From positions 91,593,319 to 91,657,318 of the forward strand of contig CP136066.1 of NCBI GenBank assembly GCA_032622095.1: a stretch of DNA of 64,000 nt, written 5' to 3'. This document shows, piece by piece, positions 3,401-50,700 of this stretch. Made by a program: the position numbers and the translations under genes. Origin of the DNA: Siphonodentalium dalli (Eukaryota; Mollusca; Scaphopoda; Gadilida; Siphonodentaliidae). The notes below the pieces were generated by a model. That model was not told the DNA's origin. It did not search any database and worked only from the letters and a program-made list of their open reading frames with translations. The stretch's first letter is position 1. Every line of letters begins with the position of its first letter.

Positions 3401-6400
3401 GTGATTGCACTTCAGCACAATTGAATCACTTTTCATTGCAATTGATTGCACTGCAATTGAATTGCATGGTGCAATTATTAATAAATGTGAATTTGGCCAC
3501 AGAAGTTAGTTGTATCCTCACCAGTGAAGAAAGATCTCCGTCCATTTCGGCTGATTTGCTGTTCCCTCCATTCTTTGGACATTCAAACATGTGTTCTTGA
3601 TCACATTCACATTTTTGGTTAGCATTGAACTGTCTGTTATTTTCCGCAGTATTTTCGAAGTTTTCAAGGCAATTGTCTTTGGCTGCTGAGAAATTATATG
3701 TCATAAGTTACCACACCATGCCTGAGTTTAGTGTGTCTGTCATTTGCAGAATAAGGTCCCCAGGGGGGGGGGGGCATTATACTAAGCATCTTGTCCTTAC
3801 CATTCTCACTTCAGACAGACAAGTTTCAGCCAGACCTATCTTACTCTTTTATATTATACTAGCAGATTAGCCCGCCTCTGGCGGCTTTGTCAGAAACATG
3901 ACTATATGAGCGTATATGAGCAAGGACACGGGCGCATGCAAAATTGGACCCGATTTGACCTTGAAATCACCATTTTGAAGGTCAAGGTCAGGTCCTGGTC
4001 ACGATTTGACCCGTCCAATACATTCCCCGGACAAAAGTACACCTGGCGTTGTTTGTCCCATGGCTTTGTTTGAAAAAGCAATTGCAACAGCTTCCGAGAC
4101 ACGTGTGTTGCACCTCGATATCAAATTTCGTCGAAATCCGCCATTTTGACAGGATTTTACCTTGAATTGACAATTTTGAAGGTCAAGGTCACGTCGTGGT
4201 CAAAACACCCCCCCCCCCGGACAATAGTATCCCTAGGTATAAAATTTCGTCGAAATCCGACAGTTTTACCCGATTTGACGCACACACATATACATGTATA
4301 TCATTTGTGGGTAGCCGTTTCAAGGTCAAGGTCACCTCGCGGTGAAAAACTGACCCGATGAAAATCTCCCCCGTTCCTTGGAACCCCTAAGTACGAAATT
4401 AAGTACGAAATTTCGTCTCGAGACGATTGAGCCGTATTTATACTCGTCGTGTATATAAACGCTCTTTATCAACGACACTGTGGATACGAACGCTCTTTAA
4501 CTATCACGCGATTAACCCCACAATTCCAAGGACGGCGGCAGTGGGAATGGAGAATGAGTGGTCGGACATTCTCATAAGCGGTCCGACGACACTGTCCGTG
4601 GATTTTTACCATTAGATAGGGAGTTTGGTCTCAATCGGTCCAGCCGTTTTCGAGTCTATATTAGCGTCTATATATACACATATAGCAGGTTAGCCCGCCA
4701 CTGGCGGCGTTGGTCCGAAACATGGCATTTTTTTTCGCTTTTCAATGAGTTAAATCGTGCGTTTTTAAGGAGGTATGATTTAAACTGACCCGATGATGTC
4801 GTTACGTGCGCTCGCGCAACAGTATGGCGATCAGACAGATTCGTAGGTTGGTGTCACCCTACTCCGTTTCACTCCATGACGTCACCAAAAACGACGTAAA
4901 ACCTCGTGGCGTTCTGACATTTTTACTGTGCCGCGTTTTTGCTATGTTTATTTTATGTGTTGTTTTCGATTATTTGTTTGTCGCCGATATCGCCATTTGT
5001 CGGGATTCCCTGTTTCTATATTTAAAACTGGCATGCTCGTAGTGAGCCTCGATTTCGATTTTTTCTCCCAGGTCAAAATACGTCAGAGTTGTGACAAAAA
5101 TAGATCGACCTACATTTTCTCCATCAGAACTCTACATCAAAGAGTCTATTGACTCCTTCGGGACCTATGTACATAGACTCCTTCATTTGGGTAATTTTAC
5201 TTATAATTAGGAAGTTTTATCATTTTTGGTTCGTGCGAAGACCTCTTTTTATCGTGCGGGGAAAGAGAGACATTCAAAACGCGATTTCGTAATTCGACGC
5301 AATAGGCTGAATAGCCTAACCTTCAGCCGAGTTCCGGGTCAAATACGACGAATGACGCAACACAAAACAAAACGGATATGTTGACACAAACACCGTTTGA
5401 AGAGTTTATTATTACATAAAATGATAGTTATTGATTAATTATTGATTAATTATTGATATTTATTGTTGCATATTGGCTGCTATCAATATTTACACAAATA
5501 GTATTAATTATTTCTTATAATTGCTCCTTTGGTCAACTTTGACTATCGAAAAATGAAAATCAAAATATGCCGCTGAAAAAAATGTAATCGATATTAAAGT
5601 CTCATCCTTTCGGCAACATGGAATTGGTTTTAATTACTTAAATGATTAATATAGTAATTTGCATTTATCTGTGATGAAATGAGAAATGGTAATTTTTCTA
5701 ACATTAAATTAAATAAAATAAATTAAGTAAAATACAGTGAAATTATTTTTTAAATTATTGTTTATTACATTTTTGCGCACGTTGGCATCTCTCTGAGTGC
5801 ATTCTAGTTGTTGTTGGCATTCAGGGCTTCGGGTCGTTGTTGTTGGCATCACGGCTCGGGGCTACCCGAAAAATCTCACATTGCCGTATAGGGGAAATAG
5901 GATTGCGTGTATGTTTTGTTTGTGTTTTTCAATGAGTTAATATTGGGTTTTTCAATATTTTACCCGATTTGACCTTGAATTGATCATTTTCAAGGTCAAG
6001 GTCATGTCAGGGTCACAATATATAATTTGTGGGTACCCGTTTGAAGGTTAAGACTGACCCGAAGAAAAATTCCCCCGTTCCTAGGAACGACAGACATAAG
6101 AATGTTTCACACAATGCGACGTCGACGATCCCCGTGTGTTTTTACACTTATGTACGAAGTTTGAGCTCACCTAGGGCGGAAAAACTTACCCGATCCGCGT
6201 TCTTATGAACACAACACGCTCCGCGTTCTTAGGAACACAGCACGCTCATGTCATACACGCCCAGACCCAGAAGATGTATGATTTTTTTTAACCTGCCCGT
6301 GGCCATTGAGCAGCCCCTGACAGAGGTTGTCCACCCTTACGAGATGGTCAATAGTCCCCGCAAAGTTAATCCCGTCGTGAACCCCATCCTCGCAAAGAGC

Positions 6401-20649: not shown

Positions 20650-20726
20650 ATGCCACTTTTTGAAGGTCTGAGTTTCACTGGGGAGAGAAGTGTTGTTGTT
20701 CTTGATATTGGCCATGCTTACACAAA
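20650..20726 (+). CDS. ACTR10: ACTR10 exon 1 (residues 1-26)
   Basis: Encodes MPLFEGLSFTGERSVVVLDIG..., the actin-fold start with the DIG of phosphate loop 1 at residues 19-21. The donor is GTGAGT at 20727. It ends in phase 2; Lys26 is completed by the next exon. Confidence 0.96.
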
Positions 20727-29700: not shown

Positions 29701-32700
29701 ATACTGTACATGTACAGGAGAAATTTGTCTTGTATCAGAATTCGAGGACCAACTAGCAGTCCTCCAAATAGGCCACGGAAATAAGCAATGCCATGGAAAA
29801 TGCCATGGCATCTTCTAACATGCCATAGCATTTAAAATTTGCCGTGGGACATTTTTCCTAATTTCGAGGGCTGTACTAGAATACTACTGTAATCGGTATT
29901 TAGAAGTTTTATTTTCCAGAGAAATCAAATATCTCAAATCAATGTTATTGGCCATTGACAGGAAATATTTCCAACAGTGAGGTGTTCTGCCAATGTGTTG
30001 TTTTTACAAAAACACAGCATTTTATTTTCAATGTGAAATTCAGCCCTGTACCCTGGGCCTTTTTTCAGGCCCTGTACGATTTGCCAAATGCGAAGCCTGC
30101 AGTATTTGTGTATGGTATATTATACAAACATTATGCTAGTACTAGTATGCTCTGAACATTTTATACAACTTTATCTTTCTCTTTATTAATATCGCTTTTG
30201 ATTTTAATCTTTTTTACAGCTATGTCGTATTTGGGAGTTTGAAGATGTTCAACAACTGTATGAGAACCTGAAAAACTTTCTGTTTGTACTCTATTTCAGG
30301 TAAGGTTTACTCAATCCTTTCATGACTGCAGCTTCCTGAAATTTTGCGAAAACCGTGTGCCAATGCATTCTCTTATATATGCGAGTCGCTCATAGGGAGC
30401 CTCACATATATAAGAGAATATGGTATATTGGCCTAACAATATTTACCTTAGCCTGGTAAGCCAGAGCATTCTGTTATATATGCGAGGCTCCCTATGGGAG
30501 ACTCACATATATAAGAGAATGCACTGGCACAGGATCTTTAATGCTTCACCAGCGCAGCTCCCATCATGAAAGGGTTAAAAGATATGCTCTCATCACACAG
30601 CACTGTATGACTAAATGTCTACATGTCACATATTTTATTATCTGAACATTTCCCACCAAAGAAAATGAATCCTTCTGCACTTGTATTATCTTTTCATCTT
30701 ACTGTTGTCTGCTAATTTATCCTGAACAGCCCTCAAAATGAAGAATAGGCTATTCCTATGTATAATTTTATAACTGATGGGAGAATCCATTTAGTAAAGA
30801 ACGGGTTAAAGACACCTCAATCCTGAGTTCTAATCCTCTTCCATATTTATAAAGGAGTGCTTAGATGAATCCATTCTTTATGCTGTTACTGTTACATGTA
30901 TGTACATAAATTGGTGGATTCTGGGTGACTTTCTGCATGTTTGGGAGATCCTGGTTAACTGTATGTACATAGTACAATTTGGCTGAAGTACATGTGTATA
31001 GCTTCAGATACTTCGAAATTTTTGAATAATATCTATTTTTGTTATAGGCATCTGCTTGTGAATTCCAAGGACCGACGAATTGTTGTTTGCGAATCTCTGA
31101 TGTGTCCTACAGCATTCCGAGATACGATGGCGAAGGTTTTATTTGAGCATTATGAGGTGAGTAAACAATGTTCAAAGATAAATTAAATAAGATAGAATTC
31201 GTCCACTATAAGTTAAATATATGTATTTATATTTTCAGATGTTTACTATTATATAGTAGATAAAGTTGGCAATAACACTTTAATTTGGTCAACAACAATG
31301 GTGATGGAAAATTATAAAATTGTTAAAGAATGTAACAAAAAATGGTAAAAAAAGTTTTTTTTTTAGGCCAATGCATTCTCTTATATATGCGAGGCGACCT
31401 ATGGTCGACTCGCATATATAAGAGAATGCATTGGCACAGGGCATAACTGTAACTATCACAATGTGGTCAAGGAGCCGGTTCCAATGATATCCATATTTGT
31501 ATGGTTCTATTGAGACAGACCGAAGATATTTTAGGCTGTTGAAGCTTTATTTGACCGGTTTTGGCCGTTTTGTTTGGTAAAGGGTTAAGAACATGTTGCC
31601 AGAAGTGGAAGACTATTTTATATAATTAGATTCTTGGTTACAGAATAATTGTTGTGAGAATTAGTCAAAAAGCACACTTCGATTGGACATGCCGTGCATA
31701 AAATTGTAAAGAATCTTGAACAAATAAACTTTTTAACTCTTTCTTTTCTAAATGGATTCTCTCACTCAGTTATAAAAGTATACATTGGAATGGTCTATTA
31801 TTCATCTAAAGGGATGTCCAGGTTATAAGAGCTAATGACAGACAGAAAAAAGCTAATACAAGTGCAGAAGGATTCATATTTTTTGGTGGGAAATGTCCAT
31901 AATAAGTTCACCAGACTATTATCGTTTGTTGACTACTCGCCAATGAGTATTTAGTATAGAAAGTGTTAAAAAGGTAAAGTACACTAAATCTGTCCATTTA
32001 TGGGACCATCTCCTTTCATACTCAACATAATATATGCAACAAATGAATGAATACGAACATGGATTTGTGCAAAATACACTTGTGTGTTCTATGAACGATG
32101 CAAATAACATGGTAATTATAATGAAAATGAATTTATGACTGGAGTCATAAATTCATTTTCATTATAATTACCATGTGTATTTTGCACTAATCCATGTCTC
32201 AAATTCATTCATTTGTTGCATATATTTTGTTGAGTATGAAAGGAGATGGTCCCATAAATGATGCTTATTCATAATTCTTACCTTGAAACAAAAAAAATGT
32301 GCATTTTTTATTCAAGTTTATGCTTAACTGTCTCTTACAGGTATCCTCAGTGATGTTCGCACCAAATCATGTTGTTCCATTACTGACTTTGGGTGTAAAC
32401 ACTGGACTGGTGCTAGATGTTGGATACTCAGAGGCTCTTGTTGTACCTATATCCTTTAGCACTATTTTCTATTACATACCATTGGTTCCCCAATGATTAT
32501 TGAGAGTGGTAGCATTATATCTGTATACCGTAGGTTCTGGCATTGCAAAACTGTGTGATCAATTTGATTGCTTTTCAATTAAATTCTTTGTGAAGCCATG
32601 TTTATTTTTCCGGACTAATTGCATATTTCTGTTCATATGTATATATTTGCTTTCACTTTAATATTTCATTGTAGTTGGGGTCCTTGTTGCCTTGTAGTCC

Positions 32701-35700
32701 AGTGCATTTATGAGAAAAAATGCCAAACCCGGAACTAATTGTAACAGAATTTGTTTTTGTTGGAGTAAGTACATAAACCCTCCATAAACAACATACTAAA
32801 AATCGGCAAAAATCGGAAAAAGGGAAATTGGTGAATTTCGTGAAATAAATTTGGGGAAATTTGGTCAAATCATCAATTTATGGATTTTCATGGATGTTTA
32901 TAAAAACAATCAAATTCACAAATCCTACAAATAGGATGTGTATTGTGTCGTCCTCAGTTTCCTGAACCCAGTACTGAAAACCAGTCCCAGATTCATTACG
33001 TATTTTTCGAGTTGTGTGCCTTCAAAAATGCAAGTTTACCTGATTTCGGCCCATTTTCGGGGCCTCACTTTCGAAGAATGAGCCAAAATGCCTTATTTAT
33101 GATTAATTATAAAAAAAAACTAGAGCAAACTGAAGGGATTTTTCACTGTTTTAGTAATTTCCTCACTAGATTAAACACAAAATATGATTAATATGTGCAT
33201 CTATAATTAAGAAGAAGATTATATTCTCAAACAAAATGTGTGTTCCATTGTATGGACTTAGCCAATTTTGCCTCTGACACTGAACGTGTGTGATGAAATG
33301 CAATATTTGAGGTCATATAACTCAATAATTTAATACCCATATGCCATGCGTTTCTTATAACCTTTTAAGTATGTTGGATTGAACAAATTGTAAAGGTATT
33401 AACAGGACATTATTTAAGAAAATCAACTTATGGCCCTTTGAATACTTAGTCTTAGCTTGTTTCCAAAGATGCCAGTTTGAGGCATTTTTTTCCATTCTAA
33501 AAGGTTTTGGGCCATAAAAACAAAAAACAATGGGTGTTTTAATGTGTAAAATTATTTGAACTTTCCTCCCACAACACTTAAGTGATAAAAAATTAGCCTT
33601 ACATTGGTCATGCCATAGTATGTCACTAGATTTCTTTCATTTTTCAGGAAACTGACTACAAATTCTAACGTTGGTATAGGGGTAGGAAAAATCACAAAAT
33701 GCAATCTTATCACCAAATTACAGCCATTTCAGACACATTGTTGTTTTCTTCCAGTTTATGTACATTCCTGTTGCATTATAAAACTGCTTAATACATTATC
33801 GGACGTTGATTTAGAATTTTATGGTTATGTTGTATAAAAACAATCTCAAAATGCCAATTTGACATTTCACTGCCAAATTATGACAACAAATATTATAGCT
33901 CTGTCAATAAACATAAACAAAGGAAATATGAAATTATGCATGAAAGAACAATGTAAGCAGAAGCTGTTAATATAAAGTTTTATGCTTCAAGATGCATAAT
34001 TTTGAAGTTTTTGTTGATATGCTTTCCCCTACCCCATTGTTCTGCCGTTCAAATTTGGAGTAAGTTTCCATAATGATGAGTGAAATCCAGTGACATTCAT
34101 TGGTATAACCATTGAAATGCTATTTTCTCAACAAAAAAATGATTTAAGAGGACAGATCACATAATTTTACACAATAAACTTTCGTTAATTATTCTGAATA
34201 TGCCTAAAATCCTTTTAAAATTGACAAAAACGCCCCACAATAGCATTTTCGGAAAAGAGGCTAGACTTAAGAGTTCATAGGACCATAATTTTATTTTCTT
34301 CACCAATGTATTTGGAAATTACTTCACAATTTCTTCAATCTAGTATTCTCAAAATGTTTTGAGAAAAGCAGAGCATATGGATATTAATTTATTGAGTTAC
34401 ATGACCTCAAATATGGCATTTCATCACACAAGTTCTGTGTCAAGGCAAATTTGGCTAAGTACATACAATGGAACACACATTTTGTTTGAGAATATTTTAT
34501 TCTACTTATTCATAGATGCACATATTAATCATATTTTGTGTTTAATCTAGTGAGGAAATTACTAAAACAGTGAAAAAGTCATTAATTTGGCACTAGTTTT
34601 TTAAATAATTAACCATATAATACGGCATTTGGCTCATTCTGTGAAATTAAGGCTCCAAAATCAGGTAAACTCGCGTTTTTGATAGCACACAACTCGAAAA
34701 ATACTTAAGGAATCTGGGAATGGTTTCCAGTTCTGGATTCAGGAAAATGTGGTCGACAAAATAGGCATGATATTTGTAGGACTTGTAAATTTGAATTTTT
34801 TATATACATTCATGAAAATCTATATATTGATGATTTGACCAAATTTTCCCAATTTATTTTTCACGAAATTCACTAATTTCCCTTTTTCCGATTTTTGCCG
34901 ATTTGTAGTATGTTGTTTACGGAGGGTATATGTACCAATTCCAGCAAAAAAAAATTCTGTTGCAATTAGTTCTGGGTAAAACCATAAATGCACTGGACTA
35001 AAGGTGCACAGCACATTAGGAGGTCATAAGCTGTCCCGCAATGGTGAAGAACAAGCCTTGAGATAGGGTGTCTGTCATTTGCAGAATGAGGTCCCCAGAG
35101 GGTGAATTTAGTGATGCTACCCCACATAGTGGGTTAGCATCACCAAATTCACCCTCTGGGGACCTCATTCTGCAAATGACAGACACCCTATTTCAAGGCT
35201 TGGTGAAGAAAGTACAGTTCTCGAAAGAAGCTTCTGTTGTTTGGGGGGGGGGGGGGGGATATGAAATGGTCCAGTCGGGACTCGGTAGCATGATTATCTA
35301 CATCTTTAAATAATTCCAATCAATGCTATCCATTCTAACTAATTATTTCACCCTTTCATGACGGGAGTTGCACTGTTGCAGCATTAAAGATCCTATGCCA
35401 GTGCATTCTCTTATATATGCTAGTCTCCCTTAGGGAGCCTCGCATATATAAGAAAATACTGGCTTACACGGTCAAGGTAAATATTCTTAGGCCAATTAAT
35501 TGTCTTATATATGCGAGGCTCTCATAGATAACAGAATACACTGGGTTACAATGTCAAGGTAAATATTGTTAGGCATTAAGAGAATGCATTGGCACAGGGT
35601 TTTTGCAAATTTTCTCCATTCATGGAAGGGTTAAATAATTCCAATCAATGCTATCTGTTGCTAACTCATTACCTAAGAAATGAAGAGTGCCTTAATGTTG

Positions 35701-38700
35701 TCTTAGGATGTTAACTGTGAGAAACATTCATTAAACTGCATTTACCCCAAGCATGATTTTTATTCATTAGTGGAAGCATGGTTAATTTATAGTCTTGTCT
35801 GGCAAATTTTTTAGTGTCCCCAGAGGCTAGCATCACCAAATTCACCCTCTGGGGACCTCATTCTGCATGGCCTCATCTTCTATGGGAGACATAGATTCAA
35901 TTTGAAGTTCCCAAATGGTGAATATTGTGATTTACATCCTTTGGGAACCTCGATTATGCAATGTGTCTTCTGCCAATGTGGTGATTTGGAGAGACCTAAC
36001 TAAAAAAGAAATAGAATCTATGTGAAGAAGTTTCTATAGAAATTTGATAATAAAGAAACTTTCCCGAGAAGATGAGGCCTAAGCAGAATGAGGTCCTCAG
36101 AAGGTGAATATATTGATGCTAGCCTGCTAGGATAGCATCACTAAATTCACCCTCTGGGGACCTCATTCTGCAAATGACAGACACACTATAATCAGGCTTG
36201 TTTCCGGGACATCTGTCATGATTGGGATATGATGGTGAATGTTCCGTACCCTGTGTTGTTAAAGTCCTATCGTAATGCTATGGGAAAAGAAGAAGTAATA
36301 TCAGATGTATGTAAGTATTTATGAATTATAACTGTTTCCTTGACTTTCGATAAGTGTATGATGGTATAACTATCATGAAGGCATGGGAAGCTGCTCCCAG
36401 AGGAGGCAAAGCAATTCACAAGTACGTATCACGTAAGCCTCAGGCTATTAAACAAGTATGTATCATGTAAGCCTCAGGCTATTAAACAAGTACGTATCAT
36501 GTAAGCCTCAGGCTATTAAACAAGTACGTATCATGTAAGCCTCAGGCTATTAAACAAGTACGTATCATGTAAGCCTCAGGCTATTAAACAAGTACGTATC
36601 ATGTAAGCCTCAGGCTATTAAACCAGTACGTATCATGTAAGCCTCAGGCTATTAAACAAGTACGTATCATGTAAGCCTCAGGCTATTAAACAAGTACGTA
36701 TCATGTTAGCCTCAGGCTATTAAACAAGTACGTATCATGTAAGCCTTAGGCTATTAAACAAGTACGTATCATGTAAGCCTCAGGCTTTTAAACAAGTATG
36801 TTTCCTGGAAAGTTTGCCAAAATAGCATTAAAGACATACTATGGACTTGTTCGCGTTCGTGAAACTGGAAAGTTAATATTCAGGCATTATGCCAACCTGG
36901 AGAATGTAGCATTCTACTAACATTGCTCAAAATTTCAAAGAAAATCGACCACACCACTCGATAAAACATCGTCAAAACTACACTCTATTGCAAATATTTA
37001 CATCTGGATTCGGGACGCAACAATCGGCGACAAACAAAAACAAATGATTTCCGCATCGAGAGTCAGTGCATTTAATTAATATATCAGAATGATGATGTGT
37101 GTTGTCAATTTGGATTAATATTCCTGAACATAACTACTTTGAGCAAGATTATTCTCCATTTCTATTTGACCACCCTACCGGAGTGTTTCACATCACTTTA
37201 ACAATTTCTTTACCAAATACTCAGTTATGATTACTTCTCTTAGGAAATATTCAGAAAATAAATTCAACAAACTCCAGTAGTCTGTTTGTTATGAGATAAT
37301 GCTCTGGCATAGGGTTTTCAATGCCAGGGTTCCCGCGGGTCCTTGAAAACCGAATCCCGGACATTTCCCCACCGGACATTTCCCCACCCACCCTTGAAAT
37401 GGCAAAGCGGACATTTCCCCACCCGGACATTTACCCACCGGACATTTCCCCACTTACTCAATATCAAAGCGGACATTTCCCCACCCCGCTGGTGAAATGG
37501 CAAAGCGGACATTTACCCTCTATGGGTGTGTGGTATTAATAATTGACTATTACTATGGGTGTGTGTTAAAATCAGATTTATTTCAATGAACGAAATTATA
37601 TACACGGAACAGCAATAACAACAAAATGGTAAGATACATAACAAAACACTTAATCTTTCTTAACTCTAATGGAAAGGCTAACAATGTCAAGGAAATTCTT
37701 TTTGCCGCTGTCGAAGTCTACACACAGTTTATGAAGCGCTGACATCTGTCGTCATACTCTCTTCGATGGCGGCTCACCCAGTCTTAATCTCTCGATGTCG
37801 GTTCTTAGTACTGTCACAACATTGTTTCAACATGCGTTGATGTCCCAAACTATCGTCAAACACTCTTTCATGTTTGTCAAAACACTCTTTCATGTTTGTC
37901 AAAACACTCTTTCATGTTTGTCAAAACATTACATCGGCTGAGGTGACATCTCTTGAGATGGCCTCACTGACCAGGCTTCACAACAGTACAAACATTCTTT
38001 GATGTCCGCGAATTTATTAGCAGGGTGGGTATATGTCCCTTTGTCATTTCACCGGCGGGGTGGGGAAATGTCCGGTGGGTAAATGTCCTGGTGGGGAAGT
38101 GTCCGGGTGGGGAAATGTCCGCTTTTGAAAGTGGGGAAATGTCCGGTGGGGAAATGTCAGGTTACCTGAAAACCCTTGAATACCCTTGAATTTAAAAATC
38201 ATTGCAAGATATATTTCACGATAGTGGAGCTGGAGTGAATTATGAATATGTGCCTTCTGCAAAGAGTTTGATAAAAGATTGTAGATTATGATGCAAGTTG
38301 TGTTTTGTATTAATTTCACACCCTTGTGTGGATAAGTTTAATTCAATCCATGACTGTGACTACCATTGATACTAAAACTACCTTTACTGTGATTTATGGC
38401 TAATGAAAAACCAGTAATTAGATGTGCATCACATAAGAGGATTGTTAACATTATGGCTTGTGTTCCTCTTGATGTATACAACAATATGTATTCAATGGTT
38501 GTTATCCATTGAATACATGTGTCTCATGCCCACATGTTGAATAAATACTGTTAACACAGCACCCTACTTTTTCCAGGTTACAGGCTTTCCACCCCGCAGG
38601 TTCTTGAAAACCCTTGAATTTTTAGCATATAACTCCTTGAAAACCCTTGAATTTTGACCCGAATACTCCTTGAAAACCCTTGAATTTCATATGAAAATAG

Positions 38701-41700
38701 CTGCAAGAACCCTGAATGCTTCATCAGTGCAGCTCCTGTCATGAAAGGGTTAACACTGAATAAACTAAGCCTATTTCCATTAATTTTTAAAAAGCGCTAT
38801 AATGAGTATGAACCTTCATTTCAGACGAATAAAAGAGAACTTGTTGGAGTGTGGAATGTGTACGACAAGCAAAGGGGCACCAAAGCCAATCAGCACTGTA
38901 GCAGGTAATCATCAAAATACAGCAGGGTTTATCTCCCATCAAGGCTGCAAATAGTTTGTCTTTGCAGAATGAGGTCCCCAGAGGGTGAATTTAGTGACAC
39001 TATCCCACACAGTGTTCACCCTCTGAGGACCTCATTCTGCTTTGAGGAATTGGAAACTTGTGGTATCAGCCATTGTTGTAGGGAAAACCCGCACTAAATA
39101 TAGAATGCTGAACTTTTCATTAAACTGGTACCGAGTCAGAAAGGAAGTACAGATTGGGTAATCATAAAATAAAAGGAATTTAATTGCTGTGATTAATGTA
39201 ATCCAGAGGGACCTGTGATGTGATATTATATTATCCCTGTCTATAATTAATGGAATTTTCAATTCAGTTGTAAAAGTATACATTGGAATGGTCTATTATT
39301 CATTTGGAGGGGTGTTCAGAAAACACGAGCAGACGACAGTATGACAAAAAGATAATACAAGGGCAGAAGGAATTATTTTCTTTGGTGGGAAACGTTCAGA
39401 TAATAAATTCAACAAAACAACCTATTATCTGAACATTTCCTAAGGGAACTACTCGTTAAGGCCCACTTAATTTTTGATTCAACAATTATTTTTTTTATAG
39501 TGCCTTGTTATACAGTTTTAATAACAATGTATGCCATAAAATATGATAAAAATGCTATAATTCATCACCATGTGGAAAGTCCGTGTCTCAGAAGGTGCCC
39601 ACAGAGTAATAGAAAATAGCTGAAATCGTAAAATCATTTCCCCTGTTATGACTCCCAGAATGCAACAGAATTCAAACTACAGTTTATTTTTCAATGGAAG
39701 CACTGATGGAAGGGGAATAAATCTATATCTAAATATATACAGTTATTCCCATTCCATTGAAATTAATATACTTTGTGCAGAAATTTGAGCACATGACAGT
39801 CTTTATCTCAACAAAAACAACATGTTCACAGTTTATTACATCCAATAAGTTGAAAATAAAATGTTTTGGAGCTTCCTCTTTCAAATGGTATATACATGTA
39901 ATATGGCATATATTTTATATAATGTGATCTGGGGGTTCGAAAATTAAGTGGGCCTTTAATGAGTATTTAGTAAAGAACACTCTTTTGTCGGAATTTTTGG
40001 CCACATGGCCTTCATCAGCTTTATGAAGAAGCAGTTACTATATATTCAAGAGGACATAATAAATTATAAACAATTAATGACAATGACTTTTTGATTGAAA
40101 TTATATCACAATATGTGATGACGTACATGTACGTCTAATGATGGCAAGAATTGCTTTTACTGTTCATCCAGTTGGGTATTCATGTGTCCAAGATTTAGTT
40201 TTTAATTCCATTTTTTTGAATGTCAGCCATTCTCTTTCCAGATACTTTAACAGAGGAAGTTCTAGAAGATATAAAAGGTATAATAGATGTTTTTTTGTCC
40301 AAGATAAACATGTAATTGAAACATTTATGTGTGATGGGAACACCCGTTTTTAGCTCAATATGACAAAGTCAAGTTTGAGCTATTGCTATGGATTGGCATA
40401 TGTTTATATGTCCATGCATCTGTGTGTCTGTGTATGATCCATCAACAATTTACTTTTGTATACCGTACAGGTCACATCTCTCATCTGAGCATCACCAAAC
40501 TTAACATGGATGAGGTGGCAAATTTTAAAAAAAATCATGGCTGCCAGCAGCCATCTTGGACTTCAAAGTTGAAACGATCGGCACACCCTGTAGCCCGCAC
40601 TTATTGCAGAATTGTTTTGAAAATATACTGGCATGTTTAGGATCACTTCTAAATGGGAGCCATCAAATTTGAATGATTGTCAATGAAAAATAATGCCATT
40701 GGCAGCCATCTTTGAGTTTACTCTTTCCATGGCACCTTGCAGCTGACATTTATTGGAGAAATGTTTTCGAAATTTACAGTCATGTTCAGGATTACTTCTA
40801 GATGGGAGCTGTCGAATTTGAACGATATTCCTTCAAAAATATGGATGCCGACAGCCATCTGGGATTTTACTCTTTGCATCATTAAATATTTCGGCATGAC
40901 CTACTGCCAACATTTTTCATCCAGTTGATCCCAAATGGCTCTTCGAGTTGACCTCTGGTGTTACTTAAACTTTAAACTTTCCGCATTCCATTTATTGCTC
41001 TAATATCTGTAATGTAAGACATTATCCCCTCTCCAAGTTGAGCCACATTGTCATTGACACTTTTGTTGCTGTTGAATTCACAAGTGTAACAAAATATGTG
41101 TTTTAGAATTGTATTCCTGCAATGTCAGCAAAGATCTTGGTCAGCACCGTTATAAAAGTATATTGGAATGGTCTATTATTCATCTGCAGGGATGCTCGGG
41201 GATGTCAACAAGGTCTTGGTCAGCATTATTGTTATAGAGTCTCTGGAATCTCTGCATTTCCAACTGTACCCATCTCCCTGACTTAACCCTTTCTTTACTG
41301 AATGGATTCTCCCATTCAGTTTATATAAAGTTGTAAATTGGAATGGTCTATTATTCATCTGAAGGATGTTCAGGAAATATAAGCTGACGACAGACAGACA
41401 AACAGGTAGTTCAAGTGCAGAAGGATTCCTATTCATTGGAGGGAAGTGTTCAGATGATACGTTCAACAAACATATGGCCATTTGTTGAACTTATTAGCTG
41501 AACATTTCCTAAGGGAACTACTCATCAATGAGTATTTAGTATAGGAAGGGTTCATTCAAATTGCAGCTCTCACCGATTTGTCCACTGAAGTTTTCTGACA
41601 TTAGTTAAAGGCATTTACAGACAGATTCGCATCATCTGCAATTTATTATCTAATGCTGAATTAAAATAAATATAATATCATGGAGGCTTTCATGTGGTGA

Positions 41701-44700
41701 GGTTGTTAACAGCTCTGTAATTTGGCATCAAGTGTGTTTCCACCATTTACGACTACAAGGACTGACAGATTTGTCGATTGATTTTGTCAGAGTGTTCCTG
41801 TAAACTTGTCCTTTCAAACTCTCTATTGATTAAAGATATTGAGCACCACCCTAAATGATTGGATTCTTTTAAACAATAGTACAAACAAAACACAAACCCC
41901 AAAGTATGATGTAAATAAACGATGAACTTTCAGAAAATATGCTTATCACGATAATTACATCGTTCATGGTGCCATCTATACGGAAGCCTGAAAATATGGT
42001 GCTGGACATTTACAGAATGAGATCCCCAGAGGGCATACAGTGGGCCAGCATTACCAAATTCTTCCTCTGGGGACCTAATTCTGCATGGCCTCATCTGCTA
42101 TGTGAGACCTAGACACATATTTAGAATCCCAAGTGGTGAAGATGGTGATGTGCACCCATTGGGCACCTCGCTTATGCATTAACCCTTTCAGTGCCAGGTT
42201 CGATTTTTGTATCAACCCATATACCCTGTGCCAATGCATTCTATGGTCGACTCGCATATATAAGAGAATGCATTGGCCTAACAATTTTTCATCATTTGTT
42301 ATTATTTTTTACAATTTTAATAATTTTTTCTTATATTCTTTAACAGACTTATTTTGTAGGCTTAGTGCCAGGGAATCTTATGTTTTTCATGGGCATCATA
42401 ATTATTACTATGAAATACTTGGTGATAGTTTTGAGTTATAACATGCCCCTAATGTTTTATCCAGTTTGTTTTTAAATTCGCTATAGCATGCTTAAGCATA
42501 CCTAAAAAAAATTCAACCCAAAAAAAAACAAAAAAACATTTTATTTTTTTATGGCCGATTTTACAGACCGTAAATTAGGGCCGATGAGATCGGCCCCTGG
42601 CACTGAAAGGGTTAAACTAAAATAAGAAAGAAAAAGAAACTTTCTAAAGAAACTAAAATAAAATTGTTAATTTGATTATAAAGATACCTTCTCGAGAAGA
42701 TGAGGCCTAAGCAGACTAAGGTCCCCAGAAGGTGAATTTAGTGATGCTAACCTGCTGTGTGGGGTAGCATCACTAAATTCACCTTCTGGGGGCCTCATTT
42801 TGAAAAAATCGGCACAATATTTTCAAACCTGTCTATAAGGACCATCAAACTGGGACAAATCGTTAGTTACTGCAAATGGCTCTAATTTCGTTACAATCGA
42901 TTTCGTGGTTCAGCAATTAACAATTTTTTGGGGGTTCTTAAATTTGTGGGTCTGTCGCTTTTAATAATGACTATCAAGCTCAAATGTATGAAGTGCAGAC
43001 AACTTATAGGTTGATGTGAATTGAGCAGATGATCTGACTGCAGGCATAATTCATTATTGTTGGATCAGGCTTTTGTTCTCATTGTGGACTAGCGGAGAAA
43101 GTAACATGATATTACTTCAGCCATCATACGCTGGATGAAACTACATGTACTCATTCCTCAAAACATTCAATGAGACTGAATGAGTATGGCCATATCTGCC
43201 GCATTCAAGCTGTTGTTGTTGTTTAATTTGAATTGCCCGACAGTTGGTTTAATGAACATTTTATTTAGAAACTCTGTGTATCCCACTCCCATGATATTGT
43301 CGAAAATTGCAACCACATGACATTATTTTAAATCAGCTAAAATTTTCTTGATGAACGTATTTCGAGGGGATTTTAACGCTTTCTATACTGATTACTCATT
43401 GATGAGTAGTTATCTCTTAGGAAAACATTTCCTCCCAAAGAATAGGAATCCTTGAACTATGGACTATGTTCTTGTATTATTATCTGTCATTTGCTTATTT
43501 TTCCTGAAAACCCCTTCAGATGAAAAATATACCCTTCCAATGTATTCTTTTATAACTGAGTGGGAGAATCCATCTAGTAAAGATAGGGTTAAGTCAGCTA
43601 AAATTTTCTTGATGAACATATTTCGTGGGGGATATTATATTCGTTGTTGTAAAACCAAAATAATTGGACCACCACGAAAAAATGTGCTTTGATCTAAGAA
43701 TAAAGACATAAATGAGTTTTTTCACCAATTCACTCACTTTTTCAGTGAGATGCTGTTTTGTGACCAGTTTCTCAAGAGCTAAACAGATTCACAGTGTTCT
43801 AGTCAATGGGGAAGACCAAAATAATGTAAGTGAAGCGTAGATGATTAAAGATGCATATTCCGATTTAACGCCCCTAAATGACTATTTCTTCGGCTTCGGG
43901 GTGAACAATATTTGAATTGAGTCAAAGAACCCACCCATCAAAGCTCAGAGTTATCAGATTTCAATTTTTCGATGTAAATACTATGTGTTTACATTTGTGA
44001 TAATACGTTTTGGGGAATTACAATTTGAACTAGGAATCACCATATATGGAACTTGTAAACCACACTCGCTCATCATCCAAACTGCCCAGAAATACATTAT
44101 TATAGGACTTTTTCGGCAGATATGATAACGTGATCGGTATTGTTGTGAGTATTTATTGGTAATAAACAAATTTGGATATAAACTAAATCAGCTTTTGATG
44201 AAATTCCATTGTTGTTGTTCATGGATGATATGGGGATTATGTATCTTTAACCATTCAAACCTCGGCATTGTCAAATCAATATGTGAGGCTCATTGGGATA
44301 GTAATGAGGAGATTGTATAATATTGATACGTTACTGTTATATTACCACAGCTGCCTAATCCACCACCTGACGTGCAATATCCACTGGAAGGGAATCTCAA
44401 GTTGAATATCACTGGAACTGTCAGGTAAGAATTCAAGCTGTCTAACCTTTTCATTAATGACTCTCCCATGTAGTTAAAACAGTATACAATGGATTGGTTC
44501 ATTATTCATTTGTATGGATAACCAGAACAGTCTAACCCTCTTATTACTGAATAGATTCTCCCATTTAGTTGTACAAGTGTTATATGGATTTGTCCTTTGT
44601 TCATTTGTAGGGATGGTCAGATAATATAAGCAGAAGACAGGCTGAAAAATAAGCTAAAGTTAAAGAAACATCCTTATTAGCTCAACTTACTTTGTAAGTT

Positions 44701-47700
44701 TGAGCTATTGCCATGGCTTGGCGTCCGTGTGTGCGTGTGTCTGTGTGTCCGTCAACAATTTCCTTTGGCGCGGGCTACAGGTCGTACCTTTGGTCTGATC
44801 TTTATTAAATTTGTCATGAATGTTGACATTGACATGTAGATGGGAACGAGTCATTTTGGGGTCATTCGGCCAAAAAACATGGCTGCTGGCTGCCATCTTG
44901 GATTTCAAAATTAAATCCATTGGCTGGGCTACAGGTCGTACTGTTTGTCTAATCATTATGAAATTTGCCATGGATGTTAATATTGACATGTAGATGGGAA
45001 CGAGTCATTTTTGGGTCGCTCGGCCAAAAAACATGGCCGCCAGCAGCCATCTTGGATTTTACTCTTTGCATGACTAAATCCTTTGGCGCGGGCTACAGGT
45101 CGTAGCTTTGGTCAGATCTTCATGAAACTTGTCATGGATGTTAACAATGACATGTAGATGGGAACGAGTCATTTTGGGGTCATTCGGCCAAAAAACATGG
45201 GCGCGGCTATCTTTGATTTCAAAATTCAATCCATTAGCACGGGCTACAGGTCGTATCTTTTGTCTGATCATCATGAAATTTGTCATGGATGTTAATATTG
45301 GCATGTAGATGGGAACAAGTCATCTTGGGGTCGTTCGGCCAAAAAACATGGCCGCCAGCAGCCATCTTGGATTTTACTCTTTGCATGACTAAATCCTTTG
45401 GCACGGGCTACAGGTCGTACCTTTTGTCTGATCTTTATGAAATTTGTAATGAATGTTGACCTTGGCATGTAGATGGGAACGAGTCATTTTGGAGTCGTTC
45501 AGTCAAAAACATGGCTGCCAGCAGCCATCTTGGATTTTACTCTTTGCATGACTAAATCCTTTGGCGCGGGCAACAGGTCGTAGCTTTGGTCGGATCTTCA
45601 TGAAATTTGTCATGGATGTTAATATTGACATGTAGATGGGAACGAGTCATTATGGGGTCATTCGGCCAAAAAACATGGCCACCAGCGGCCATCTTGGATT
45701 TCAAAATTCAATCCATTAGCATGGGCTACAGGTCGTATCTATTTTCGGATCATCATTAAATTTGTCATGGATGTTAATATTGACATGTAGATGGGAACGA
45801 GTAATTTTGGGGTCATTCGGCCAAAAAACATGGCCACCAGCAGCCATCTTGGATTTTACTCTTTGTTTGACTAAATCCTTTGGCACGGGCCACAGGTCGT
45901 AGCTTTGGTCTGATCATCATGATATTTGTGATGGATGTTAATATTGACATGTAGATGGGAACGAGTAATTTTGGGGTCATTTGGCCTAAAAACATGGCCA
46001 CCAGCAGCCATCTTGGATTTTACTCTTTGTTTGACTAAATCCTTTGGCACGGGCTACAGGTCCTACCTTTGGTCGGATCATTATGAAATTTGTAACAGCT
46101 GTTGACATTGACATGTAGCATGGGCTACAGGTCATACTGTTCGTCTGATCATCATGAAATATGTCATGGATGTTACATGTAATATTGACATGTAGATGGG
46201 AACGAGTAATTTTGGGGTTGTTCAGCCAAAAAACTTCTCCGCCAGCAGCCATCTTGGATTTTACTCTTTGCATGACTAAATCCTTTGGCACGGGCTACAA
46301 GTTGTATCGTCGGTCTGATCATCATGAGATTTGTCATGGATGTTAACAATGACATGTAAATGGGAATGAGTCTTTTTGGGGTCATTTGGCAAAAAAACAT
46401 GGCTGCCAGGGGCCATCTTGGTTTTTACTCTTTGCATAACTAGGCCTTTGAACTTTCCACATTCCTAATCACTCCATTGACTGTAACACTTGAAATTATT
46501 CCCTTTCCAAGTTGAGCTACAGTGTCATTGACACTTTCATGTTGATCATGCCATGAATCTAGACTCTGGCTAACGCCCGTAGAGATCATATTCCACCAGT
46601 ACAAAACCTTGGAACTTTTTGAAGTTTTGACAGGGAACCTTATAAAGTCAAAAAATTAATGCGGGGAATATATTTCTCAGTTATTATCTGTTCCTTAATA
46701 ATGTACTTCACTGTAGGTGAAGGTTCCAACTCGAATTTTCACGATTTAAGTGAATTTATGAGCGATTTGCATACTATGGCCCTTGGTAAGCAATCTCAGG
46801 TGAAGGTTCCAGCTCGAATTTTCACGATTTAAGTGAATTTATGAGCAATTTACATACTATGGCCCTTGGTAAGCAATCTCAGACTCGGAAACAAAATTGC
46901 CAGTAAAACTCTTTGTTTTGGCCTTATACTTAGGGAATAAACATGCTATATGGTGCGATTTTGGGATGTTTATTGGTGGGTTTTACTATGGAAAAATCAG
47001 TTTTACCTGGTGACATTGATGCTAAAATTCAAAACTATCCAAAATAAAATATTATGACATGCCAATACAGTTCTTAATCATTCCTGAAATTAGACTTAAT
47101 GACAGCCGTGCATGATGTAAATGTACATAAATGTATACCCTGTACATTTATACTATACTGTGTTTTCTTCTGAAGAATTTTAATTCTGCTACAGTTGGCC
47201 AAATTATACTTATGTCGTTTCATTAGTTATGAGCATCATAGACATGAACTGGATCTAAGAAACATTACATCAAGACTATTGATATAGGCCGCTAACTTCA
47301 AAATGTCACTTCATAGTTTACACGTACCGGTATATCGATTAAAACACAAACTGCTTTTTTTCCCCCTGTATTTCGCTGTGTGCTTTGAGTAAGGCCATTA
47401 AAATATCTGTGTTCTCAGGCAACGGGACCTCAATTTTGAGATGAGGGAGGGAGGCTATTGATTTTTTTTTCTCAAAATCTGGAAAACATTCTACAGAATT
47501 TGTTTTTTATTTTCATTGTTAAAATCCAATATTTGTAACAGAAAATATTGAAAAAAAAGTGTTTGACGAGGCTTTTTTAACCCTTTGAGTGCCAGGTCCG
47601 ATTTTTGTATCAACCCATATACCCTGTGCCAATGCATTCTCTTATATATGCGTGTCGACCATAGGTCGACTCGCATATATAAGAGAATGCATTGGCCTAA

Positions 47701-50700
47701 CAATTTTTCATCATTTGTTATTATTTTTTACAATTTTAATAATTTTTTAAAAATCTAAAAAAAAAACAATTATTTTTTATTTATTTTATTTTTTTAGGGC
47801 CGATTTTACAGACTGTAAATTAGGGCCGATGAGATCGGCCCCTGTCACTGAAAGGGTTAAAGAAAATTTCAGTGCGGAGGGAGGTGTTGAAAATGTTCTT
47901 TATTTGCCCTAAGGTATATTGCATATTTTTCAGGGAACATTCCTGTGAAGTACTGTTTGAGCGAGACAATGATGAGATCTCTATAGCGACGCTTATTTTA
48001 GATTCATTGATAAAAGTAAGTATGTGAGGCATCATACTGACCTGATCATGTCCTGTCATCTACGATTCGGCTGCTCAATCAAAATATTACCTTCATCATT
48101 ATCTTCGCAGTCTGCACATAATAATGGAAGTAATAACTACATTAATTTTTAACATGAAGGATTGCAAATTTCTTAATTTTGTATAACCTTTTTTTATTTT
48201 AGCCTAGTTTATGCCTTGGTGACCCATATGTTACCAGAAGGGTTACACAAACTGTTATATTACTAATACTGGTATTATTACCTAGCAATGAGTAACTGAT
48301 TGAAGTAATAATTTGAAATGTCCATTTTGGGACTTGATTGAGCAATAATTAAGGTGAGATTTGGTGATTTTGAGATCTACAAAAAACTTTCGGTCGGTCT
48401 GTTTTTGTTCGCTTCGTTTTCGGAATTCTCCAGGCGAACTGAACAAAATGAAATTTGATATGGTTGTTCACCACTGAGGACATTCAGAGGAGTGCTCAAT
48501 CATTTTGTTTGGATTTTCCATTCTAGAGTTATTCATCTTTGTTTATCTAGAAATGTTGTTTTTTTGCCTGTCTGCCTGAGTATCTCAGCCATGGGTTATA
48601 GGATCTTGATGAAATTTGATATGGATGTTCATCATCATGAGGGCTATCAATGAAGTGTCAAACGATGTTGTTTGCATTTTCCATTCTAAAGTTATTAACC
48701 TTTGTTTATCTGGAAATATTGATTTTTTTGTCCGTCCACACAAATATCTCAGTACGGGTTTTTTATCAAATCTCAATGAAATTTGTATGTATGTTCACCA
48801 TAATGACGACTTCCAAAGAAGTTTTAATTAGTTTTGTTTGCATTTTCCTTTGTAGGGTTATTTTTCTTTGTTTATATAGAAATATTGATATTTTATCTGT
48901 CTACATGAATGTCTCAACCATGGTCATCAGATATCAACAGATCGACAGCTTTAAAAAAAAAAGAGGATCTGTTGTGATATAAAATTGTCATGGTTCTGTC
49001 ACTTCTACTTAATATATTCCCACCCTAGGTGGTGTGCCACATGTAGGTAAGCACCAGGCGACAGCCCCGCTTTTTTTATGTGTACCCATACCATAGTATG
49101 GTAAACATAGTATTGACGTCCAGATTGACCACTCCTCATTTGTCCATCAATCTGTCTGTAGACACACATCGTGCGATAACTCAAATTTGTTTTATCTGAT
49201 TGGAACCAAATTATTTTCAAAGTTATGGTACTTTTTTTACTTAGAATTCACGCATGCTGCGATAACTCCAAAGATGTTTATCTGATTGGAACCAAATTTG
49301 TATGAGTTTCTCCGCCCAAAATACAGATCGAGTTTGGATATGGGTTTGATCCAATATTTTTTTAATGGAGTTATGGCCCTTTTTCGTTTAAAAAATTATT
49401 TTAATTTTATTAAATATTTTTTTTTTAGATTCACCTCTTTGCTCAATTTAACCAAATAAAAATATCAATTTTTTTTTTAATGTGGTGTACTAGCTTAATA
49501 ATTGAGTAGTTTTCTGTGTAGGTCCATTTAAACTTTCCAACTCCTGACATAGCTCAGGCGTGGAAACCCCCTTAATAAAACACTCATTGAATATTCTTAT
49601 ATAATCAGAGGTGATGTTCTGATTTGAAAATTCCTAAAATCACTGACATCTCAGTTACCAGAGGATTAAATTATCCATGTTTAAACATATTAAATTAACA
49701 CTCTGAACCATGTGCTTTATGTTATATTTGTCTCTTCAAATATCTAGTGCCCAATCGATACAAGAAAGGAGTTGGCGGAGAATATCGTCGTGACGGGAGG
49801 AACAGCTATGTTGTCGGGTTTCTACCACAGATTGAAATGCGAGTTAGATGATCTCCTGACGGACCCTAAATACAGCACAGAACTAGCATTGAAAAGCTTA
49901 AAGTTCTACAAACCTCCCAGTAAAGAGAACTACACATCATGGCTCGGAGGTCTGTAATATCTAGTGATAAGGCAATAACGAAAAAAACCTCTCTGACTGA
50001 ATTTAAATTATCTGGAGACACATTCGCTGATGATCAAATCCGTTTCTGATATACAGTAAAACCTCTACAAACCAAACACCCTTTGAACTGACCTTTCTGT
50101 TTGGTTTAGTGAGGTGTTTGGTTTATAGAAAATTGCACTGTCATGAAACATGAAGCTACCTTTACAAAAAAAGTGATCAAGATGCAAATTTATAACTTTA
50201 CAAAACAACACATTAATAAAAATAAATAAAACTATCGATGCAAATGTATGGATAAAAAACTTTTAATGCCTGTCTCAATGATGATCTTGTCACATTTTTA
50301 ATTATGTAGCTGATCGACGATTTGCCGATTCCATGTTTTATACGAAGCTCTTTCTTGGACAGCTTTTGAATAGCATAATTGTAGATCATTTAATAAACTT
50401 ACTTCTGTTCTTGGAATGCAATGCCGTGTGCTAAGTATGTGTAACTGTTCAATTATTCTGGATGAAAATGTCTTGGTGACAAATTGACCACTAGGTATTT
50501 ATAGAGAACTTGTGTTCATGTTGACAAATAGGGCTCTTACGATACACCAATACATATCACAATGTTTGCTCTCAATACGATATTAGTGTCGCAATTCACT
50601 TTACACTTGAAAACTTATTGAAATTTTAACCCGCAGTGATGATTGGTGGCCTGGTATAATGATAATTCCATTTCTCATTTCTAATGACATACCATTCAAT

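Follow-up and report, generated by a model that had tools for sequence, protein, structure and literature searches.

An apparent AT-AA minor intron in the ACTR10 gene of the scaphopod Siphonodentalium dalli

Introduction

The stretch of Siphonodentalium dalli DNA analysed here (64 kb of contig CP136066.1, positions 91,593,319 to 91,657,318 of the forward strand; hereafter the window) carries on its plus strand an intact-looking gene for ACTR10, the dynactin subunit Arp11. Annotation of minor introns is difficult when their ends are non-canonical, and introns with AT-AA termini are easily misannotated. A sequence-only reading of the window had proposed that the fifth intron of ACTR10 is of this kind, a U12-type intron that starts with AT and ends with AA. 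The evidence gathered from the sequence supports that proposal: intron 5 is best explained as an A-type minor (U12-dependent) intron with AA as its main acceptor and the exon 5 codon CCT joined to GTG of exon 6 (Pro-Val), to which we give a probability of about 0.86.

Results and discussion

When the joined exon peptides were compared with the PDB, four Arp11/ACTR10 chains were matched at 4.1e-75 to 1.7e-74, far ahead of the next-best match, actin, at 3.8e-18. The product is therefore closer to Arp11 than to actin or the other Arps, and the earlier naming of the gene as ACTR10 holds. Its exons were placed by tblastn, by inspection of the reading frame and, for the weakly conserved exon 7, by a constrained search. 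The resulting 13-exon model runs from 20650 to 53348 as a single open frame of 409 residues and a stop; 201 of 405 aligned residues are identical to human ACTR10, and the first 172 residues align to ACTR10 end to end with one gap. The intron under study is the fifth of the 12 in the assembled model, as its number had implied.

Exons 5 and 6 each have one match in the genome (2.23 Gb, nine contigs, E ≤ 0.001), in both cases inside the window, which leaves no paralogue or retrocopy that could confound the reading of ACTR10. A spliced retrocopy, which could have stood in for a cDNA, was sought genome-wide with these two exons and none was found; a search for relatives in viral contigs gave 72 pattern matches, none of them confirmed.

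The features of intron 5 and its flanks are as follows (all on the plus strand, in window coordinates).

32341 to 32448, plus strand: ACTR10 exon 5, 108 nt, phase 0 in and out, placed by gapless alignment to Arp11
32449 to 36353, plus strand: ACTR10 intron 5, putative U12-type, 3905 nt, phase 0, apparent AT-AA termini
32449 to 32457, plus strand: 5′ splice site of intron 5, ATATCCTTT, an exact minor-intron donor
36336 to 36344, plus strand: candidate branch site of intron 5, TTCCTTGAC, with A36343 bulged in the predicted U12 duplex
36351 to 36353, plus strand: TAA in frame with exon 6, the last three bases of the intron
36352 to 36353, plus strand: 3′ terminal AA; the intron stops 10 nt past the branch A
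36353 to 36354, plus strand: overlapping AG, a rival acceptor offset by 1 nt
36354 to 36421, plus strand: ACTR10 exon 6, 68 nt, leaving in phase 2, peptide VYDGITIMKAWEAAPRGGKAIH(K), placed by Arp11 alignment
36418 to 36798, plus strand: 34-bp tandem array (minisatellite), 11.2 copies, beginning on the 5′ splice site of exon 6

Exon 5 is directly preceded by TTACAG and its peptide ends ...EALVVP, the last codon being CCT. With a slash at each junction, the sequence reads ...GTA CCT/ATATCCTTTAGC at 32448/32449 and ...CGATAA/GTG TAT GAT GGT at 36353/36354. Eleven of the 12 introns in the model are GT-AG and intron 5 alone is AT-AA (exon 7 being tentative). The donor has no mismatch to the nine-base consensus [A/G]TATCCTTT, compared with three to seven in the other 11 introns. 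The branch site likewise has none to TTCCTTRAC, compared with two to four for the best 9-mer within the last 40 nt of each of the others. Both signals are thus the exact consensus matches that had been claimed. The last 12 nt of the intron are GACTTTCGATAA; the reported optimum from branch site to 3′ splice site is 11–13 nt (PMC3584512).

Taken singly these motifs are unremarkable: on both strands of the window the donor sequence occurs twice (1.38 expected) and TTCCTTRAC three times (1.43 expected). Their placement is not chance. As each is expected about 1.4 times per window, their weight comes from position, and the chance of finding both where they are is about 1.3e-8, a simple product of window frequencies that allows seven donor positions round the homology-fixed exon end and 15 branch-site positions.

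The Arp11 alignment sets the junction, without a gap, at human Pro150/Ile151, and the earlier pairing of VVP-VYDG with human VLP-IYEG stands with no gap at the join. Because TAA is a stop in the frame of exon 6, no in-frame acceptor is possible upstream of that exon. All in-frame, stop-free joins with an exon 5 end between 32415 and 32519 and an exon 6 start between 36291 and 36415 were then enumerated (1,319 joins). Among introns starting with GT, GC or AT and ending with A and any base, the AT-AA join 32449 to 36353 came top with a score of 126. A GT-AG junction that keeps the conserved residues was looked for in the same set; there were four GT-AG joins, the best scoring 87, and all four lose the conserved VYDG. 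The best GC-AG join (32459 to 36354) scored 114, with three inserted residues and most of VYDG kept. Joins with the termini CC-GT, TC-TG, TA-TA, AT-GT and TA-AG scored 124–127, equal or close to AT-AA. No convincing U2-type alternative was found among the local in-frame joins tried. The statement that the reading frame forces the intron to end in AA is therefore true once the donor ATATCCTTT is accepted, but not otherwise, since the GC-AG join and the joins at 124–127 are also in frame.

Matches above the Rfam cut-offs were found in the genome for the small nuclear RNAs (snRNAs) U12 (two), U6atac (four), U11 (four) and U4atac (three), and by these matches the organism has the genes of a minor spliceosome. 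The four U11 matches lie within about 8 kb (G000:C5:33341765-33350092), three of them equal in score. The Pfam family CCDC84, to which CENATAC belongs, gave two exon-size matches about 105 kb apart on the same strand. The genome's own U12 RNA contains AAGGAA, complementary to TTCCTT of the intron 5 branch site, and the predicted duplex bulges A36343.

In the minor spliceosome U11 and then U6atac pair with the donor, and U12 pairs with the branch site. On intron 5, U11 and later U6atac would pair with ATATCCTTT and U12 with TTCCTTGAC, bulging A36343; the second step would take the close acceptor AA at 36352–36353 and so join CCT to GTG. We infer from the sequence that intron 5 is spliced and that AA is its main acceptor. 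AT introns are reported to tolerate any last base, with AC preferred (PMC4176328). Most likely the last base of intron 5 was originally C (AT-AC) and later changed to A. In human cells introns of the AT-AN group (AT-AC, AT-AA, AT-AG and AT-AT) are described as promoted by CENATAC (PMC8280824); by analogy, CENATAC would probably be required for intron 5 as well.

As controls for A-type introns elsewhere in the genome, two genes with a human A-type intron were used: a sodium-channel segment, the human genes of which presumably have such an intron at that place, and LKB1/STK11, which reportedly has one. The sodium-channel segment had four genome matches, and both of the loci judged have U2-type acceptors (TTTCAG/GT at L013 and TTCCAG/GT at L014). 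STK11 had 140 genome matches; the one locus judged, L017, also has a U2-type acceptor, TTTCAG/GT. The donor pattern [AG]TATCCTT was absent from either strand of all five loci L013–L017. These controls neither support nor refute the AT-AA reading. Because they are U2-type, the evidence that A-type introns are in use in this genome comes from the snRNAs, the matches to the CENATAC family and intron 5 itself. As a separate observation, many kinase-domain matches lie on one strand at G000:C2:149827083-150592590, often 2–3 kb apart and with some larger gaps; they look like a large tandem family.

Several points weigh against the AT-AA reading. Helices as long as those predicted for intron 5 form at 3,759 of 63,988 plus-strand window positions for U6atac, 6,021 of 63,988 for U11 and 2,087 of 63,991 for U12, and are not distinctive; duplexes as strong were obtained in 491 (U11) and 51 (U12) of 777 intron windows. 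Pairings of this kind are common enough that they show compatibility and not proof. Intron 5 is in phase 0, and the share of phase 0 among minor introns is reported to average 22% (PMC10639083). All three control loci judged have U2-type acceptors, so that a second A-type intron was not seen. The AG that overlaps the end of the intron, which the sequence-only reading did not mention, makes a 1-nt AA/AG tandem acceptor, and being also near the usual distance from the branch site it might account for part or even most of the splicing. In that case the same U12 intron would be cut mostly as AT-AG (32449 to 36354); the resulting mRNA would be frameshifted and prone to decay, and AA would yield the minor or an equal product. 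An AT-AG site has been reported for ACTR10 of human and some primates (PMC4176328), but AT-AG mixtures are described as disfavoured (PMC3584512), and joining at the AG here yields ...VVPCMMV followed by a stop. As this product stops and ACTR10 has no second match in the genome, AA is needed for at least part of the output, and we consider predominant use of the AG unlikely. The AT-AA reading would also fall if the final A were an assembly error or a private allele: a single C read as A would account for everything, there is one assembled copy, and the true or usual end would be that of an ordinary AT-AC intron. On the other side, no long homopolymer is present at the acceptor and AT-AA introns are reported to exist in animals (PMC10639083), which leaves this quite unlikely.

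Two further explanations would give the intron an AG end. A U2-type GC-AG intron from 32459 to 36354 would be in frame and end in AG, at the cost of three extra residues (VVPISFMYDG). GC donors need a strong consensus, which TTTA/GCACTATTT lacks; this intron would also ignore an exact U12 donor and place an insertion in an otherwise gapless conserved stretch, and it appears very improbable. Alternatively, editing of the terminal A to inosine might make the intron read as an in-register AT-AG. Editing of an acceptor from GT-AA to GT-AG has been reported in human (PMC4176328), and intron 5 has smaller foldbacks besides a long inverted repeat, with the arms closest to the acceptor ending 151–182 nt before it. 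The long repeat stops about 1.35 kb upstream, however, and the acceptor region folds no better than shuffled sequences (z −0.89; 37 of 200 shuffles as good), so that editing is hardly to be expected. The AT-AA intron with its productive AA acceptor remains the favoured explanation.

The array that begins on the exon 6 donor contains AAGTAYGTA 10 times, the donor itself counted, and a 161-base query over it gave 10 of 10 matches at this locus (in a search that skips simple repeats). It recalls the USSE, tandem U12-type 5′ splice sites that activate an upstream acceptor (PMC3584512), in being a row of 5′ splice-site sequences downstream of an acceptor. Unlike the USSE, its copies resemble U2-type donors and form a 34-bp minisatellite, and any enhancer role is putative, a low-probability lead drawn by analogy. 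One could imagine a working switch in which the minor spliceosome chooses between the productive AA and the decay-bound AG, while the array strengthens definition of exon 6 and offsets the weak AA. The level of ACTR10, and hence the supply of dynactin, would then vary with CENATAC and with the length of the array. We regard such a switch as rather unlikely.

The long inverted repeat in intron 5 is an element of about 2.3 kb (32690–35004) with arms at 32690–33670 and 34046–35004 that are 80% alike over 985 nt. One arm has at least 40 genome matches at 98–100% identity (itself included; 40 scored), and the element looks like a young, abundant foldback. The related short foldbacks of the intron, at 35052–35202 (74-nt arms, 96% complementary) and 36083–36171 (43-nt arms, 88%), are similar to miniature inverted-repeat transposable elements. 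In intron 4 a near-perfect hairpin at 31995–32260, with arms of 58 nt (98% complementary) and 34 nt (100%), ends some 80 bp before exon 5 starts. In intron 10, at 44761–46358, tandem repeats of 164-, 241-, 315- and 482-bp period overlap one another.

The remaining exons of the ACTR10 model were placed as follows, by tblastn, frame inspection and the model unless stated otherwise.

20650 to 20726, plus strand: exon 1, with the start codon
28799 to 28871, plus strand: exon 2
30220 to 30299, plus strand: exon 3
31048 to 31156, plus strand: exon 4
38825 to 38904, plus strand: exon 7, tentative, weakly conserved, frame kept in the model
40242 to 40277, plus strand: exon 8 (frame inspection and model)
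43746 to 43825, plus strand: exon 9 (frame inspection and model)
44351 to 44424, plus strand: exon 10
47934 to 48015, plus strand: exon 11
49748 to 49949, plus strand: exon 12
53188 to 53348, plus strand: exon 13, with the stop codon (tblastn and model)

Exon 7 is the best of eight candidates, and its score was equalled by three of 100 shuffled queries.

The value of intron 5 is practical for annotation, and its scientific interest is moderate. In an intact-looking, conserved gene, an AA that keeps the frame next to an AG that breaks it offers a clean test of how the minor spliceosome chooses the last base of an intron. The termini of the ACTR10 intron are reported to vary among vertebrates (GT-AG, AT-AG and GA-AG) and, as these ends differ, natural variants of the gene could be compared for their dependence on CENATAC.

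Comparison with known systems

A U12-type intron in ACTR10 is already known from vertebrates. In human it is listed as a twintron (PMC3564746); in zebrafish it is given as GA-AG, with AT-AC or GT-AG counterparts in other vertebrates (PMC2831892). The primate AT-AG site, which has a GT 5′ end in other mammals (PMC4176328), presumably belongs to the same intron. No printed position for the ACTR10 intron was found in the literature text searched. The U2-type products of the human twintron are said to be of 219 residues (PMC3564746), the length of human ACTR10 from Met199 to residue 417. This suggests that the twintron lies upstream of codon 199, which is compatible with a position at 150/151 but no proof of it. 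The same gene carries a minor intron in both cases (here at human 150/151), and intron 5 is likely to be orthologous to the vertebrate intron. It differs from the human twintron in that no convincing U2-type alternative was found among the local in-frame joins tried.

The term AT-AA does not occur in the main text of PMC3564746, PMC2831892 or PMC4176328, nor is ACTR10 named in the main text of the AT-AA/AT-AN papers PMC8280824 and PMC10639083; an AT-AA variant of ACTR10 may already be listed in supplements or intron databases. AT-AA had been called rare. It is uncommon, the non-canonical classes together being reported as about 3.8% of orthologous minor introns in animals, yet it is described as the commonest of these classes in animals and in plants (PMC10639083). 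Intron 5 shares termini and donor class with those introns, with the difference that its AA is directly followed by G, which gives an AG one base later. The human PRMT1 U12 intron is another parallel, of AT-AC type with an AA 3′ terminus; splicing at that AA is reported to lead to decay (PMC3564746), whereas the AA join in ACTR10 would keep the conserved frame. Read in this way, ACTR10 intron 5 is a further example of the known AT-AA class, at what is likely the place of a minor intron already known in vertebrates.

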